This document shows, piece after piece, positions 49,904 to 55,704 of a DNA stretch of 64,000 nt (position 1 is its first letter; every line of letters begins with the position of its first letter). The translations under genes were made by a program, and so were the position numbers. Under the pieces are notes generated by a model. The model made no database searches. It saw only the letters and a program-made list of their open reading frames with translations, and was not told the origin of the DNA. This stretch comes from Candidatus Bacteroides merdigallinarum (GTDB lineage: Bacteria > Bacteroidota > Bacteroidia > Bacteroidales > Bacteroidaceae): NCBI GenBank assembly GCA_019116285.1, contig DXBX01000089.1, forward strand, positions 1-64,000, written 5' to 3'.

Positions 49904-50320
49904 TCATTCTTGTTTCCGTTTAATCCAATTCTCTATTTTAAGTCCCGCGATACGTTGGAAATGTTTGATGTTGTCCGTGACCAGGATGTATCCTCCGGAA
50001 AGTGCGGTGGCTGCTATCATCAGATCAAATTCGTCAATTAAAATTCCGTCTGAGCGAAGTCGTGTTTTGGTGATGGCATATTTTTCTACAGCATCAATCA
50101 GGGGTATTATGGGGAAGTGTTCTACAAACATCTTCACTTTAGGTACTTCTTGTTCTTGGTGTTTGGAATAATATGCACCAAACATCAATTCGTAGAGCGT
50201 GATGACAGACAAGGCGCACCGGCCTTCGCCCAGTGTTATCAGTTTCCGGGAGACGTCCGTATTGCCCCGCAACAACTCGATGCAGATATTGGTGTCCAGC
50301 AAGTAATTACTCGTTTTCAT
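49904..50320 (-). CDS. PIN-domain VapC-like toxin
   Basis: [58 protein letters not shown]; overlaps the upstream small gene by 14 bp. Confidence 0.92.
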
Positions 50321-50576
50321 CTGTCAACGGCATGATATGGCGTGTCACATGGAACTGCCTGGAGTTTCGTATATCGTCCTTGATCTCTTCTGTCGTGCGC
50401 GGATCATCTTTCCATGCGCCGCATATTTCGTTGATAAAATCGGCGTAATTCGTTTTTGTTTCTTCTTCCCGCGCCTCTTCTATCAGTTTCTCACCCAGCC
50501 ACCGTTTGTTGCTCGCACTCAGCGAAAGCTCGTGGATAAGGCCTAATAGTCCGTCTAATGAGATTGTTGCTTTCAT
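50307..50576 (-). CDS. VapB-position antitoxin-like protein
   Basis: 89 aa from MKATISLDG; 14-bp overlap with the PIN toxin. Confidence 0.75.
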   Translation of the reverse strand: MKATISLDGLLGLIHELSLSASNKRWLGEKLIEEAREEETKTNYADFINEICGAWKDDPRTTEEIKDDIRNSRQFHVTRHIMPLTDENE

Positions 50577-50724
50577 TGCTGTAATGTTATGTTCCTGCAA
50601 AGATAAAAATAAAAGGGGAGAGTGCAATAGGGATTGCAGAAAAAAAGGGGCGTGCCCGTCCGGATTTCTCCTTTTTCAGGTACGCACCCTCTGTGTTGTT
50701 CCGTCTTATCCACTCTGTCGGGGC

Positions 50725-51204
50725 TTAACCGTAGGTGCCCTCCTCGCCTTCGTCCTCGCCGCCGGGCTCGGTGGGTTCTTGCGTCTCGGTGGATTCCTCC
50801 TCCCGTTCGTTGTACTCCAGCCATTCGATGTTCGTGGGCACCAGGGCGCGGGTGGCCGTAGAACCCTTGGTGACCGCCCCTTCACGCTGGGGGACAAACT
50901 GCACGCGTACGGCGCGGAGCTGCTTCTGGAAGTCGAACTCATCTTCCGTCTCCACGCCCTTCGTGTGGAGGGTGTAGCGGAACGTGCCCAGCCCGTCCAG
51001 CCGCACGGACTTCCCCTGGCTCATGTAGTCGGCCATCACGCCCGGCAGCTCGCCCAGCACGGCCATCACGTCGGCATACGTTGCGGTACACATCTGGCTC
51101 AACCGCTTGGCCACTTGCTTGACGGGCACGGGCTGGCCCACCACGACGGCGGCGGGATACCACACGCCGTTCTTCTCATTGAAAACTTTCTTGTAGAAAC
51201 TCAT
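50725..51204 (-). CDS. HU-family DNA-binding protein with acidic C-terminal tail
   Basis: MSFYKKVFNEKNGVWYPAAVVVGQPVPVKQVAKRLSQMCTATYADVMAVLGELPGVMADYMSQGKSVRLDGLGTFRYTL...; tail EEESTETQEPTEPGGEDEGEEGTYG. Confidence 0.85.
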   Translation of the reverse strand: MSFYKKVFNEKNGVWYPAAVVVGQPVPVKQVAKRLSQMCTATYADVMAVLGELPGVMADYMSQGKSVRLDGLGTFRYTLHTKGVETEDEFDFQKQLRAVRVQFVPQREGAVTKGSTATRALVPTNIEWLEYNEREEESTETQEPTEPGGEDEGEEGTYG

Positions 51205-51338: not shown

Positions 51339-51370
51339 CAAAGATAAGAAATATTCCAAACATATGCAAA
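51339..51370 (-). promoter_or_regulatory. Bacteroidales sigma-ABfr type promoter for the HU-like gene
   Basis: Minus strand TTTG-N20-TATCTTTG matches the -33/-7 consensus (TTTG, TAnnTTTG). Confidence 0.65.
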
Positions 51371-51394: not shown

Positions 51395-51426
51395 TTGCGA
51401 CAGAGACAGTAACGACAGTTTTATTT
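51395..51426 (+). repeat. GACAG element copy 1 (left arm of inverted repeat)
   Basis: TTGCGACAGAGACAGTAACGACAGTTTTATTT. Confidence 0.92.
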
Positions 51427-51591
51427 ACATATTAAACAGAGTAGGGGAGAAATATTATTTTCCATAACAGCAAACTCAAAACACTTGAAACAACAAAGAC
51501 ATGGTTTAATTTAGAAATAATATAAATCTATTCATATAAAGCAAAGATATATTCAATTTTATTTAGTAACTGAGTAATTGATGAATACGAA

Positions 51592-51623
51592 AAATAAAAC
51601 TGTCGTACTGTCTTTTGTCGCAA
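51592..51623 (-). repeat. GACAG element copy 2 (right arm, inverted)
   Basis: Minus strand TTGCGACAAAAGACAGTACGACAGTTTTATTT. Confidence 0.92.
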
Positions 51624-51765
51624 GTAGTCATGCTACTTTTGGAGTTTTCCAAAAAAATTTTTTGTTGCAGATATAATTTCATTGTTTTTGTTTTGCTATG
51701 TGGGAAATATTGCTGAACTTTGTGGCGAAGTAAAGGATAACCTAAACTTAAATGTTTTTATTTTT

Positions 51766-54033
51766 ATGGGAATGCATTTTGAATTTTTATTCGGCCTTGT
51801 GCCGAGTGCAGACAAGGGGCACGTGGACCCTTGTGGGGTTAATAATCTGAAAGAGGGCTTCCTCAACCCGCAGGTGCTGGAAATCTGTCTGCGGATAGCC
51901 GGGGCGGCCACCCGCAGTAACAAGAGGGGAATCACGCAAGAGGAGTTCGAAGACATCAAGTCCCGCGAGAAGAAGAAACTGTCCGGCTGGACGCCCCAGG
52001 CCGCTTTCGGGGGGACACGCAGGCTGAATGCGGAGGCCATCCCTAACGGACTGGTCATGGCGGACTTGGACCATCTGACGGCACCCATCCGTGTGTATGA
52101 ACGCAGCATCCGGCCGCTGGCCGAGGAGGGCATCGTCCGCCTCTGCCACCTGACGCCCAGCACGGCTTCCGACCGCACGACGGGAGGCTTGCGCATCATC
52201 TTCCGCAGTCCCGAGGGAATGGACATCGAGCAGGCGCAGGCGTGGCTCTATGGTCAGCTGACGGACGTACCGGAGGAGTGTAAGGATAAGTGTATCAAGG
52301 ATTTGGCGCGTATCAGCTTCTTCGTTCCTGCCAATTACATCCTTTATCCTACCGACGGCGTGGATGGGCTGGAGCGGGTCTTTGCTGATATAAAGCTATC
52401 CGAGGCCGTGCCGGCGAAAGCGCCCGAGGCCGTGCAGCCTCCGCAACAAGTCGCACCTGCGCCCGAGGCTGTTACCGCCGTTGCGGACAGCTCTCTGCCC
52501 ACCAGTTTCCGCGGCATCGCCTATACAGATATTGTGCGCGGGCTGCTCGCGGCACTGGGTGGCGTGCCTGCTCCCGGCGAACGCAATACCCGTCTGCACC
52601 GGTTGGCCGTCCACTTGCGGGGCATCACGGACAACCGCGAAGACTTGCTGCTGCACATCATTCCGTCCTGTGGCCTCAGCGAGGCGGAGATGCGGGATAT
52701 CGTGCATAGCGCGTGCAAGAGCAGCGGTGCCTACTACGTGACCCATCTGACGCAACAAGTGCTCTATAACCTGAACCCTGAAGCCGCCATGCCTGCGCCG
52801 CCCCTGCCCGCGAAGCTGCCCCGCCTCATCAGCTTGCTGTTGGAGAATACCCCGGAGCTGTACCGTCCCGCCGTGGCGCAAGCGGTGTGTCCTGCGTTGG
52901 CTGCCTACTTGCAAGTGACGTTCGACTATATCGACGGGCGCGAGATGGAGCCTGCGCTGATGCACCTGACCATTGCTCCCACCAGTGTCGGCAAGAGCTG
53001 CGTGAAGGATGTGATAAGCCATATCACTGCCCGCATCCGTGCCCGCAGCGCCGTCAACCGTGAGCGCGACCAGCAATGGAAGGACCGGTCCGCCAGCCGC
53101 AGTGCCAACGAGCGCGGTCCGCAGCGTCCCAAGGGTCTGGTGATGCAGTATGTGCGGCCGGACATGACTTCTGCCGCCCTCATCCAGCGCCTGCACGATG
53201 CGGAAGGCCGCTTCCTCTTCACCCAGATGGACGAGCTGGACAACCTTGACAAGCTGAAAGACCAGAAATTCACGGTCATCAAGTGTGCGTTTGATTGTGC
53301 CGACTGGGGCGCGGAACGCGTGGGTAAGGAGTCTGTCTCCTACACCGTCCCGATGAGGTACAACTGGGTGGCCTCCACCACGCCGGGCGGGGCACGCAAG
53401 TTCTTTGCCCGCAATATGACGGACGGCACGGTGAACCGTCTGAACATCTCCACCATCCCCCAGCCTGAAATCGGCGCGCCCATTCCCCGCTATGGACGCT
53501 ACACCGAGCAGTGGGAAGCGCGGCTGGCCAAGTATCTGGACAACCTGGAGGCGGTCACAGGGCATGTCCGTTGCCCGCAGGCACTGAAACTGGCCGAGGC
53601 GATAGACCGCGAACTGAAGGACTTGGCCATTGCCACGGACGACCGCACGTTTGAGACCCTCTCTTTCCGTGCCAACGCCATCGGCTACCGCAAGGCCATG
53701 GCACTTTGGGTGGCCAACGGCAGGAAGTGGGAAAAGGCCATCGAGGACTTCATCCGCTGGTCGGTGGAGTATGACCTATGGTGCAAATATCGCTTCTTCG
53801 GCGAGGCCATTCATCGGGCGGAGGAGGAGGACAATGCCTGCATCGGACGGCGCGGGCCGGTGAACTTCCTGGTCGAGTTGCCGCACACGTTCACCGTGGC
53901 CGACTTCCTCGCCAAGAGCGCCCAGGTGGGCAAAGCTACGGATGTAGTACATGCCAAACGGTTGATACAGAAATGGATTGACCGGAAGAAGGTGGTGCGC
54001 GGCGCGGAGCAAGGCACCTTTGTCAAGGTATAA
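51766..54033 (+). CDS. BT4734/VirE-N-type primase domain plus DUF3987 helicase-like protein
   Basis: N-terminal primase-like (ADLDHL, TPSTASDRTTGGLRIIFRSPEG) and DUF3987 P-loop APTSVGKSCVKDVI. Start codon uncertain (51682, 51766 or 51772). Confidence 0.82.
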   Translation: MGMHFEFLFGLVPSADKGHVDPCGVNNLKEGFLNPQVLEICLRIAGAATRSNKRGITQEEFEDIKSREKKKLSGWTPQAAFGGTRRLNAEAIPNGLVMADLDHLTAPIRVYERSIRPLAEEGIVRLCHLTPSTASDRTTGGLRIIFRSPEGMDIEQAQAWLYGQLTDVPEECKDKCIKDLARISFFVPANYILYPTDGVDGLERVFADIKLSEAVPAKAPEAVQPPQQVAPAPEAVTAVADSSLPTSFRGIAYTDIVRGLLAALGGVPAPGERNTRLHRLAVHLRGITDNREDLLLHIIPSCGLSEAEMRDIVHSACKSSGAYYVTHLTQQVLYNLNPEAAMPAPPLPAKLPRLISLLLENTPELYRPAVAQAVCPALAAYLQVTFDYIDGREMEPALMHLTIAPTSVGKSCVKDVISHITARIRARSAVNRERDQQWKDRSASRSANERGPQRPKGLVMQYVRPDMTSAALIQRLHDAEGRFLFTQMDELDNLDKLKDQKFTVIKCAFDCADWGAERVGKESVSYTVPMRYNWVASTTPGGARKFFARNMTDGTVNRLNISTIPQPEIGAPIPRYGRYTEQWEARLAKYLDNLEAVTGHVRCPQALKLAEAIDRELKDLAIATDDRTFETLSFRANAIGYRKAMALWVANGRKWEKAIEDFIRWSVEYDLWCKYRFFGEAIHRAEEEDNACIGRRGPVNFLVELPHTFTVADFLAKSAQVGKATDVVHAKRLIQKWIDRKKVVRGAEQGTFVKV

Positions 54034-54035
54034 GC

Positions 54036-54064
54036 AAGCGACAGCGACAGTAAGACAGTTTTCT
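54036..54064 (+). repeat. GACAG element copy 3
   Basis: AAGCGACAGCGACAGTAAGACAGTTTTCT, starts 3 nt after the primase stop codon. Confidence 0.88.
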
Positions 54065-54076
54065 GCGCTTATGTTT

Positions 54077-54104
54077 CCCCGGGCATCCTCGTCCGGGGAT
54101 TTTT
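54077..54104 (+). terminator. Terminator after the primase-helicase gene
   Basis: CCCCGGgcatcctcgtCCGGGGaTTTTT. Confidence 0.75.
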
Positions 54105-54107
54105 ATT

Positions 54108-55601
54108 TTACCGCGGATTCTGCACCATGTTCGGATTGGCATCCAGTTCCGTCTGCGGGATGGGCAGGGCGATGCGGAGGTCATTGGGCCGGATGGTCCA
54201 GGCGTCGGAGGTGTCCAGCGTGATGAGGTGCCAGCCACGGTTGCGGACGATGGGTTGGCCGTTGCGCAGGAAGGCGAAGAACACCTGGCCCTCGCCCACC
54301 AGCTCGCGGCGGTATTCGTCCAGCAGGCGCGTCAGGGTAAAGCCGTCGGCAGCGACCTGCATGGCGGGGTTCGCGGTGCGGTTGGCGATGAGCGTGTTCA
54401 GGTAGGTCCGTCCCGTTTCGGCTTGTGCGCCGCCCAGGTGCAGGCCCGCCTCTGCGGCATTGAGGTAGACCTCGGAGAGGCGGATGATGCAGATGTCATT
54501 GTCCTGCGGTGTGCCGGTCTTGCCGGGGAATTTGGTCAGGAAGACGTTGCGGTCGCGGGCTTCGGCGGGCAGTCCTGCATTGTTCGGGGTGACGGAGGGA
54601 GCGGTGACGCTGTGGCGCACGTCCGTGGGGTCTTGGTCCAGCAGGTCGAGGTAGTCTTCGGTCAGGATGAGGTTGTTCCAGTCGAAGGTGGCCTCGTTGG
54701 CGTAGACCATCGGTGCGCCCTCGCCGCCTGTGCCGCCCGAGGGTTCGGTGGCGGTGATGTAGAGTTCGAAGAGTGATTCGGCCTGGAAGTCCTGTCCCCA
54801 GACGGTGGGGTATTCACTCGGGGTGTAGAGCCGGTAGAGTCCGCCGTTGTTCTCGATGACGTCCGTGGCGGCGTCCCAGGCTTGTTGGTATTCGCCCATG
54901 TCGAGGTAGATGCGCGACAGCAGGGCTTGGGTGGCCCAATAGTTGATGCGTCCGTCGGTCTTCTCCGTGGGCAGGTCGGGCAGGGCGTCGGTCAGGTCTT
55001 GGACTGCCTGGGCATAGCATTCGGCCACGGTGTTGCGGGCGGGGGCGCTGCCGGGGTCGGAGGGCGTGGTGACGATGGGTACGCCCAGGGACGCGCCGTG
55101 GTCTGTCATGTAGGGCATGCCGAAGAAGCGCGTCAGGTTGAAGAGGGTGAGGCCGCGCAAGACGAGGGTCTGGGCACGGATGGAGGCCAGGTCGGCGTCG
55201 GAAGCGTCGGCGATGCCTCCTTGGGCGATGCGTTGGAGGATGTTGTTGGCCTGGCGGATGACCACGTAGGGTTGTTGCCAGGGCAGGGTGATGTTGAGGT
55301 TGTCCGTGGCCTGCACGTTGTATTCATAGTAGGGCGACACGCGTCGTCCGTCGCCCTTGGTGACGCGGGCTTGCACGTCCATGGCGCGGCAATCGCCGTA
55401 GTACCAGTAGTTGTCCCCGTAGTAGCTGTGCAGGGAGAGTTCGCGATAGACGCCGTTGAGGGCGGTCTGGACGTCGTTCAGGGTGGAGAGTGCCTGTTCG
55501 GTGGTGACGGAGGTGGACGGGTTCAGGTCCAGCCAGCTTTCCGAGCAGGAGGTGGCCGTCAGGGCGGCGGCCAGGCAGAGGTATGTGTAGATTCGTTTCA
55601 T
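54108..55601 (-). CDS. SusD/RagB-family outer membrane lipoprotein
   Basis: Lipoprotein signal MKRIYTYLCLAAALTATSCSESWLDLNPST; RagB/SusD features; downstream of SusC. Confidence 0.93.
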   Translation of the reverse strand: MKRIYTYLCLAAALTATSCSESWLDLNPSTSVTTEQALSTLNDVQTALNGVYRELSLHSYYGDNYWYYGDCRAMDVQARVTKGDGRRVSPYYEYNVQATDNLNITLPWQQPYVVIRQANNILQRIAQGGIADASDADLASIRAQTLVLRGLTLFNLTRFFGMPYMTDHGASLGVPIVTTPSDPGSAPARNTVAECYAQAVQDLTDALPDLPTEKTDGRINYWATQALLSRIYLDMGEYQQAWDAATDVIENNGGLYRLYTPSEYPTVWGQDFQAESLFELYITATEPSGGTGGEGAPMVYANEATFDWNNLILTEDYLDLLDQDPTDVRHSVTAPSVTPNNAGLPAEARDRNVFLTKFPGKTGTPQDNDICIIRLSEVYLNAAEAGLHLGGAQAETGRTYLNTLIANRTANPAMQVAADGFTLTRLLDEYRRELVGEGQVFFAFLRNGQPIVRNRGWHLITLDTSDAWTIRPNDLRIALPIPQTELDANPNMVQNPR

Positions 55602-55617: not shown

Positions 55618-55704
55618 TAGAAGTTAAGAAGTAAAGAAGTTAAGAAGGAATGTTTCAGCGAAGTGTATTCTACTTAACTTCTTAACTTCTAAATTCTAAC
55701 TTCT
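55618..55704. repeat. Dispersed hairpin repeat, copy B (inverted relative to copy A)
   Basis: tagaagttaagaagtaaagaagttaagaaggaatgtttcagcgaagtgtattctacttaacttcttaacttctaaattctaacttct. Confidence 0.92.

Follow-up and report, generated by a model that had tools for sequence, protein, structure and literature searches.

Iteron sets in SaPIs are said, in the work of Ubeda et al. 2007, to flank an AT-rich segment, and the iterons bound by the alpha protein of phage P4 are the same at its two separate cis sites, ori1 and crr. Gut Bacteroidota commonly carry DUF3987/BT4734 genes, in many cases several per genome. The Rep protein of SaPIs recognizes, through its C-terminal domain, iterons that lie directly downstream of its own gene, and the SCCmec gene encoding Cch2 is followed by three iterons bound by the C-terminal domain of that protein (PMC7581432). 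BT4734-like proteins are a recognized family of AEPs, and DUF3987 is a predicted helicase of mobile elements (PMC5862659). We suggest, from sequence comparison, that three GACAG-rich elements of a Bacteroidales chromosome are probably iteron sites of a primase-helicase initiator module, in which an inverted pair and its spacer would form an origin-like site. In the non-subscription literature searched, we found no earlier description of such iterons.

The elements lie in the window, by which we mean the whole 64,000-nt stretch analyzed (contig C79 of host assembly G000, which comprises 2.7 Mb in 93 contigs and is 80.6% complete). Named relatives of this genome point to a Prevotella-like bacterium. 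Arm 1 (51395..51426, + strand, TTGCGACAGAGACAGTAACGACAGTTTTATTT) carries three GACAG iterons and arm 2 (51592..51623, - strand, TTGCGACAAAAGACAGTACGACAGTTTTATTT) carries GACAA, GACAG, and GACAG; the two arms, each of 32 bp, are inverted and face inward toward a 165-bp AT-rich spacer (51427..51591, no strand; 76% A+T versus 46% for the whole window). Copy 3 (about 54038..54062, + strand, GCGACAGCGACAGTAAGACAGTTTT), a triple iteron on the strand of the primase gene, starts 4 nt past the primase stop, and a terminator-like GC hairpin with a T run (54077..54109, + strand) lies 3' of it. The initial annotation had reported an inverted GACAG-rich pair around a spacer of ~165 bp and a third copy past the primase stop, and both were found again when the sequence was re-read; its count of three GACAG motifs per copy stands as three words per copy, the first word of arm 2 being GACAA. 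A three-word GACAG-like detector returned exactly arm 1, arm 2, and copy 3 and nothing else in 64 kb, and a two-word pattern recovered arm 1 alone in the window, where 0.16 matches are expected by chance. A further tandem inverted repeat (AGAAGTTAAGAAGTAAAGAAGTTAAGAAG ... CTTAACTTCTTAACTTC) lies at 55618-55696, between susD and susC, and looser repeats of that kind are frequent near the DUF3987 genes of relatives.

The gene between arm 2 and copy 3 (51766..54033, + strand) encodes a BT4734/DUF3987 primase-helicase of 755 aa, identified by Pfam, alignment, fold matches, and a PrimPol model, which the protein also matches. Its domains are an AEP primase (DxD at 100-102), an MCM-like helicase (GK at 409-410 and E490), and a winged-helix-like C terminus at about 700-755. 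Both profile matches fall slightly under the cut-off for the window protein (PF08800, BT4734-like N, E=4e-4, a profile that scores 51 bits in L145; PF13148, DUF3987, E=2e-5), and the original gene call holds with the backing of 28 aligned relatives, in which D100 and D102 (primase motif I), G409-K410 and E490 (Walker A/B), and R558 are invariant. The protein shows the hhhDhD pattern of AEP motif I and the DUF3987 P-loop with Walker A/B; the position of AEP motif II (sxH) reads TGGLRIIF, with no obvious H, and is outside the invariant columns. The best PDB fold matches are MCM helicases, with E values down to 1e-6, and the best viral ones are phage primase-polymerases and DUF3987 proteins; the phage and plasmid collections searched contained no relatives. 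The AlphaFold2 model, a confident one (pLDDT 87.7), has helices and two short strands at 701-754, and the C-terminal segment so modeled resembles a winged helix and is a putative DNA-binding domain.

On the other side of the pair, and transcribed away from it, lies a gene for an HU-HIG (HU_rel) DNA-binding protein (50725..51204, - strand), whose earlier designation as HU-like is borne out by PF18291 (E=4.4e-18) and by NCBIfam TIGR01201 above its cut-off. The -7 consensus of Bacteroidota is TAnnTTTG. The -7-like motifs predicted for the two divergent genes were both located, that of HU at 51339..51346 (- strand, TATCTTTG) and, past arm 2, that facing the primase at 51634..51641 (+ strand, TACTTTTG). 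The TTTG at 51614-51617, 16 nt upstream of TACTTTTG, belongs to the primase-side promoter and is situated inside arm 2, while ~50 bp separate arm 1 from the HU -7 motif downstream of it. This arrangement would suit operators, that is, sites at which the initiator or HU only represses the divergent promoters and tunes the 3' end, with no replication involved.

In most of the modules examined, the repeat found at the stop codon returns as an inverted pair around an AT-rich segment next to a divergent HU gene. A pair adjoins both HU and DUF3987 genes in L044, L145, L149, and L155, an HU gene in L096, and a DUF3987 gene in L144; wherever HU stands beside a pair (the window, L044, L096, L145, L149, and L155) it is directed away from it, and adjacency to the HU start in these six modules would again be expected of operators. 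Three features speak against that explanation. Copy 3 lies past the stop, where an operator would have little role, and yet it is the most general feature of the family; an AT palindrome would be superfluous for an operator; and pairs occur directly 3' of the gene in L147 and, as solo pairs, at sites not tied to HU or DUF3987. We therefore regard regulation without replication as unlikely. Autoregulation, which the initial annotation had raised as a switch, is possible as a by-product of iteron binding, because the TTTG of the primase-side promoter falls within arm 2.

The AT segment between the arms of recurrent pairs mostly holds an A/T run of 24-46 nt, and it is palindromic in L002, L044, L073, L074, L079, and L131; a comparison of these palindromes with Rfam gave sub-threshold matches of the miRNA-precursor type only. 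The spacer of the window is a weak version of this structure, its longest A/T run being 13 where most relatives have 24-46. The arms of the pair match the 3' iterons of their own module, on the same strand, better than those of any other in five of six modules (17/20 in the window, where shuffles reach at most 14, and 18, 18, 18, and 20 elsewhere), the exception being L151, which has a pair and no matching 3' iterons. In G025, one paralogue has a pair built of GGTTTCAT and another a pair built of CGTTTCAT; in the latter (L146), CGTTTCAT units occupy the place where GGTTTCAT stood. The inverted pair was not found in the plasmid collection searched. Other HU/DUF3987 loci, where absence of the elements would have spoken against the initial annotation, share the architecture, since relatives have triple iterons at both places, but not the letters, which are private to each gene, the motif itself not being constant.

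The 3' iterons extend across the gene family. Within 100 bp of the stop, a triplet with <=2 mismatches occurs in 17 of 40 non-redundant BT4734-type genes, taken from genomes that are mostly draft MAGs and in which relatives from the same genus are not independent. The corresponding figures are 0.4% for shuffles, 0/40 for mid-gene windows, and 1/30 for hisH stops; with <=3 mismatches the figure is 27/40, against 3.0% of shuffles and 2/30 hisH stops. Remote PF13148 genes have a stop-proximal triplet in 12/30 cases versus 0.3% of shuffles. About one third of the family genes are without a clear triplet, as judged by an iteron finder of fixed unit length that misses some genes, and copy 3 of the window, too degenerate for the 8-mer triplet test, was recognized by its GACAG core. 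Chance, or a low-complexity repetition typical of Prevotella intergenic DNA, is an extremely improbable source of the elements: these genomes do hold many other tandem inverted repeats, but triplets are far rarer in the shuffle, mid-gene, and hisH controls than at the stops of the family genes, and the matches are private to genomes. Chance is refuted for the class as a whole, and single instances could be due to it.

The letters of the iterons differ from gene to gene (GTATACAG in L016, GGTTTCAT in L019, CGTGCCAT in L055, and TCACAGA in L027), and those of G013 and G025 were absent from all 11 of the other genomes searched. When paralogues were chosen by their downstream gene, blind to the iterons, and scored by a fixed rule, iteron copies 1 and 2 had the same variable triplet in 12 of the 15 that were readable, against 2.5 expected. 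The iterons thus appear, from these comparisons, to be private to each gene, with units that change in concert. Where iterons overlap the coding sequence, they sit in the codons for the final strands of the winged helix; protein sequence does not account for the repetition, because some iterons are wholly past the stop (the window, L005, L016, L019, and L055). Many DUF3987 genes (L007, L023, L047-L053, and others) have, starting directly 3' of the iterons, a small downstream gene whose product begins MEL/MEM-TL and which on reading its sequence we take to be DUF5675-like. Four CGTGCCAT iterons at about 1500-1531 of L130 (G013:C34) lie upstream of a RhuM-like gene present as two tandem partial copies; these iterons match those of the G013 DUF3987 gene.

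Two paralogues within the host genome lie on contigs C20 and C34. The core DNA of the C20 and C34 genes is mostly 75-98% identical, identity falls to 42% in the 60 nt that encode the end of the protein by the iterons, the iterons themselves differ, and similarity resumes after them. The C20 gene has iterons similar to the pair on C1 (CATTACAGTCATTACAG), beside which a DUF3987-type gene is cut off by the contig end after its 5' part. Exact overlaps of 131 bp, inside near-identical DUF3987 cores, link C1 to both C20 and C34, and such paralogues therefore break the assembly.

Pairs, in many cases with an AT palindrome, also occur alone, with no HU or DUF3987 gene within the fetched flanks of about 1 to 8 kb. 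From reading the adjacent genes, we take their sites to be upstream of hisH in this genome, in the gyrA/clpC gap in G038, near uvrB/tilS homologues in G130, and elsewhere. The hisH-upstream pair is present in 1/30 hisH loci and the gyrA/clpC pair in 1/30 clpC loci, gyrA and clpC being adjacent in most of the 29 clpC loci without a pair. DUF3987 genes are present in this genome and in the solo-pair genomes G038, G101, G130, and G147; the solo iterons match the resident DUF3987 gene in G038 and G147 and not in G130 or this genome. For the solo pair of this genome, a match to a resident DUF3987 3' end was sought and rejected, the best score (15/18) being to another genome. Three contigs (L067, L078, and L083) end within an AT palindrome. 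A single triple GACAG site stands between flavodoxin-like and nagB-like genes at an equal position in two genomes, G015 (L094 1868-1888, G015:C76) and G076 (L060 1503-1522, G076:C118).

The distribution of the solo pairs suggests that they spread by copying, and their lineage-specific intergenic sites (1/30 in each case) are what one would expect of ordinary miniature transposable elements served by an unrelated transposase, with the proximity to DUF3987 arising by chance or preference. Such elements would not be expected to match the 3' end of the neighboring gene, module by module, as the iterons do; by inspection, two solo pairs of the same genome have spacers that differ outside the iterons and the AT core, which would not be so in recently copied elements; and near-identical copies, a clean empty site, a target-site duplication (L002 was checked), and a cognate DDE or other transposase were all sought for the pairs and not found, which makes this origin quite unlikely. 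In G002, the nearest relative, a different gene, presumably encoding formyltetrahydrofolate deformylase by our reading of its sequence, lies between the lipoprotein gene and hisH, where this genome has its solo pair. No clean empty-site junction is available at hisH because G002 carries that gene there, and the gain of the solo pair may have been coupled to the loss of the G002-type gene (L156 and L157).

The surroundings of the window module include lysS, PIN/antitoxin genes, SusD/SusC, and ftsK, by sequence reading and profile hits. A PIN-domain toxin gene and a probable antitoxin gene occupy 49904-50627, between lysS and HU. The G015 orthologue (65% protein identity) likewise precedes ftsK and conserves copy 3 and the terminator (L045), with an IS21 element upstream and with HU and the pair absent. 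In G033, lysS and ftsK flank another gene, encoding an ATPase; the interval, considered as a possible empty site, was set aside because its content varies and does not look like the scar of an excision. From these comparisons, the lysS-ftsK interval is evidently a variable spot, in which the gene keeps its 3' iterons. Inverted arms flanking a spacer with a promoter, and outward arms around the primase gene, could in principle make 51395-51623 an invertible segment or 51592-54064 an excisable cassette, possibilities that the initial annotation had considered, but this is very improbable. No recombinase gene was seen in the immediate neighborhood of the repeats, the arms are imperfect and made of tandem words as in initiator sites, and the layout elsewhere is in one orientation, which argues against a phase switch. 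That copies 2 and 3 delimit a mobile unit is likewise unsupported: copy 3 goes with the 3' end of the gene rather than with a terminus, and in G015 it remains there although the pair and HU are absent.

The proposal of a replicon-like origin is the best fit of the three that had been put forward, given that relatives have triple iterons of their own at both places and that the protein has the domains of a self-loading initiator, and it stands as a prediction. We infer that the primase-helicase, not HU, would be the iteron binder and that replication would be the outcome. The predicted C-terminal winged helix would bind the iterons, both at the origin-like site made up of the two arms and the AT-rich spacer between them and at copy 3, a second iteron site that accompanies the initiator gene at its 3' end. 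The MCM-like helicase would then be loaded on either side of the AT-rich segment, which HU may help to open, the AEP domain would prime, and a host polymerase would copy outward; a protein bound at the pair would lie over the primase-side promoter as well and could limit expression. An integrase, a relaxase, and an att site were not seen between 44 and 61.5 kb of the window, and the phage and plasmid collections contained no relatives, so that any episomal stage would be hypothetical; this counts against a replication module, and the module may be either active or a domesticated or decaying remnant.

A broader and, in our view, doubtful extension is that Bacteroidales chromosomes harbor selfish mini-replicators, whose DUF3987 initiators would use private three-iteron passwords and scatter non-autonomous solo origins into intergenic DNA, with new passwords arising as the wing and the overlapping iterons change together. 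If each DUF3987 gene does carry its sites at its 3' end, protein and site can be read together for dozens of paralogues, and origin recognition and its evolution would therefore become directly testable from single sequences. The same reading, if true, would explain a class of dispersed repeats that sometimes interrupt the short-read assemblies of such genomes.

Among known systems, SaPI pri-rep/ori resembles the window module in its primase and helicase activities and its C-terminal DNA-binding domain (both predicted for the window) and in its downstream iterons (PMC7581432), and the window has both iterons directly downstream of the gene and an iteron-flanked AT-rich segment. The window module differs in its primase and helicase families, in its HU gene, and in having a separate inverted pair of triple iterons; moreover, the integrase, att repeats, and packaging genes of a SaPI island were not encountered at the window locus, where no helper phage was seen and the only two tRNA genes are both >14 kb away. 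SCCmec Cch2 and the window both have a gene for a self-loading helicase (putatively so in the window) with exactly three short iterons behind it (PMC7581432). In SCCmec the helicase, of the D5 type, and the polymerase are separate, whereas the window protein is a fused AEP primase/MCM-like helicase with a second, inverted iteron site.

REPIN/RAYT and TnpAREP systems also comprise gene-specific short inverted repeats that occur alone in intergenic DNA and coevolve with the gene (PMC6006769), but their repeats are small hairpins rather than tandem triple iterons around AT palindromes, and their gene encodes an HUH transposase, not a primase-helicase. The window gene belongs to the BT4734-like AEP/DUF3987 family, whose description, in the passages of PMC5862659 consulted, mentions no iterons, HU partner, or origin. 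Phage P4 combines a primase-helicase with iterons at two cis sites, as the window does, although its primase is unrelated and the life cycle of P4, a satellite phage, is known. By analogy, the anatomy of the module would be that of an initiator-iteron replication module of the SaPI/SCCmec/P4 type, here in Bacteroidales and together with an HU gene.
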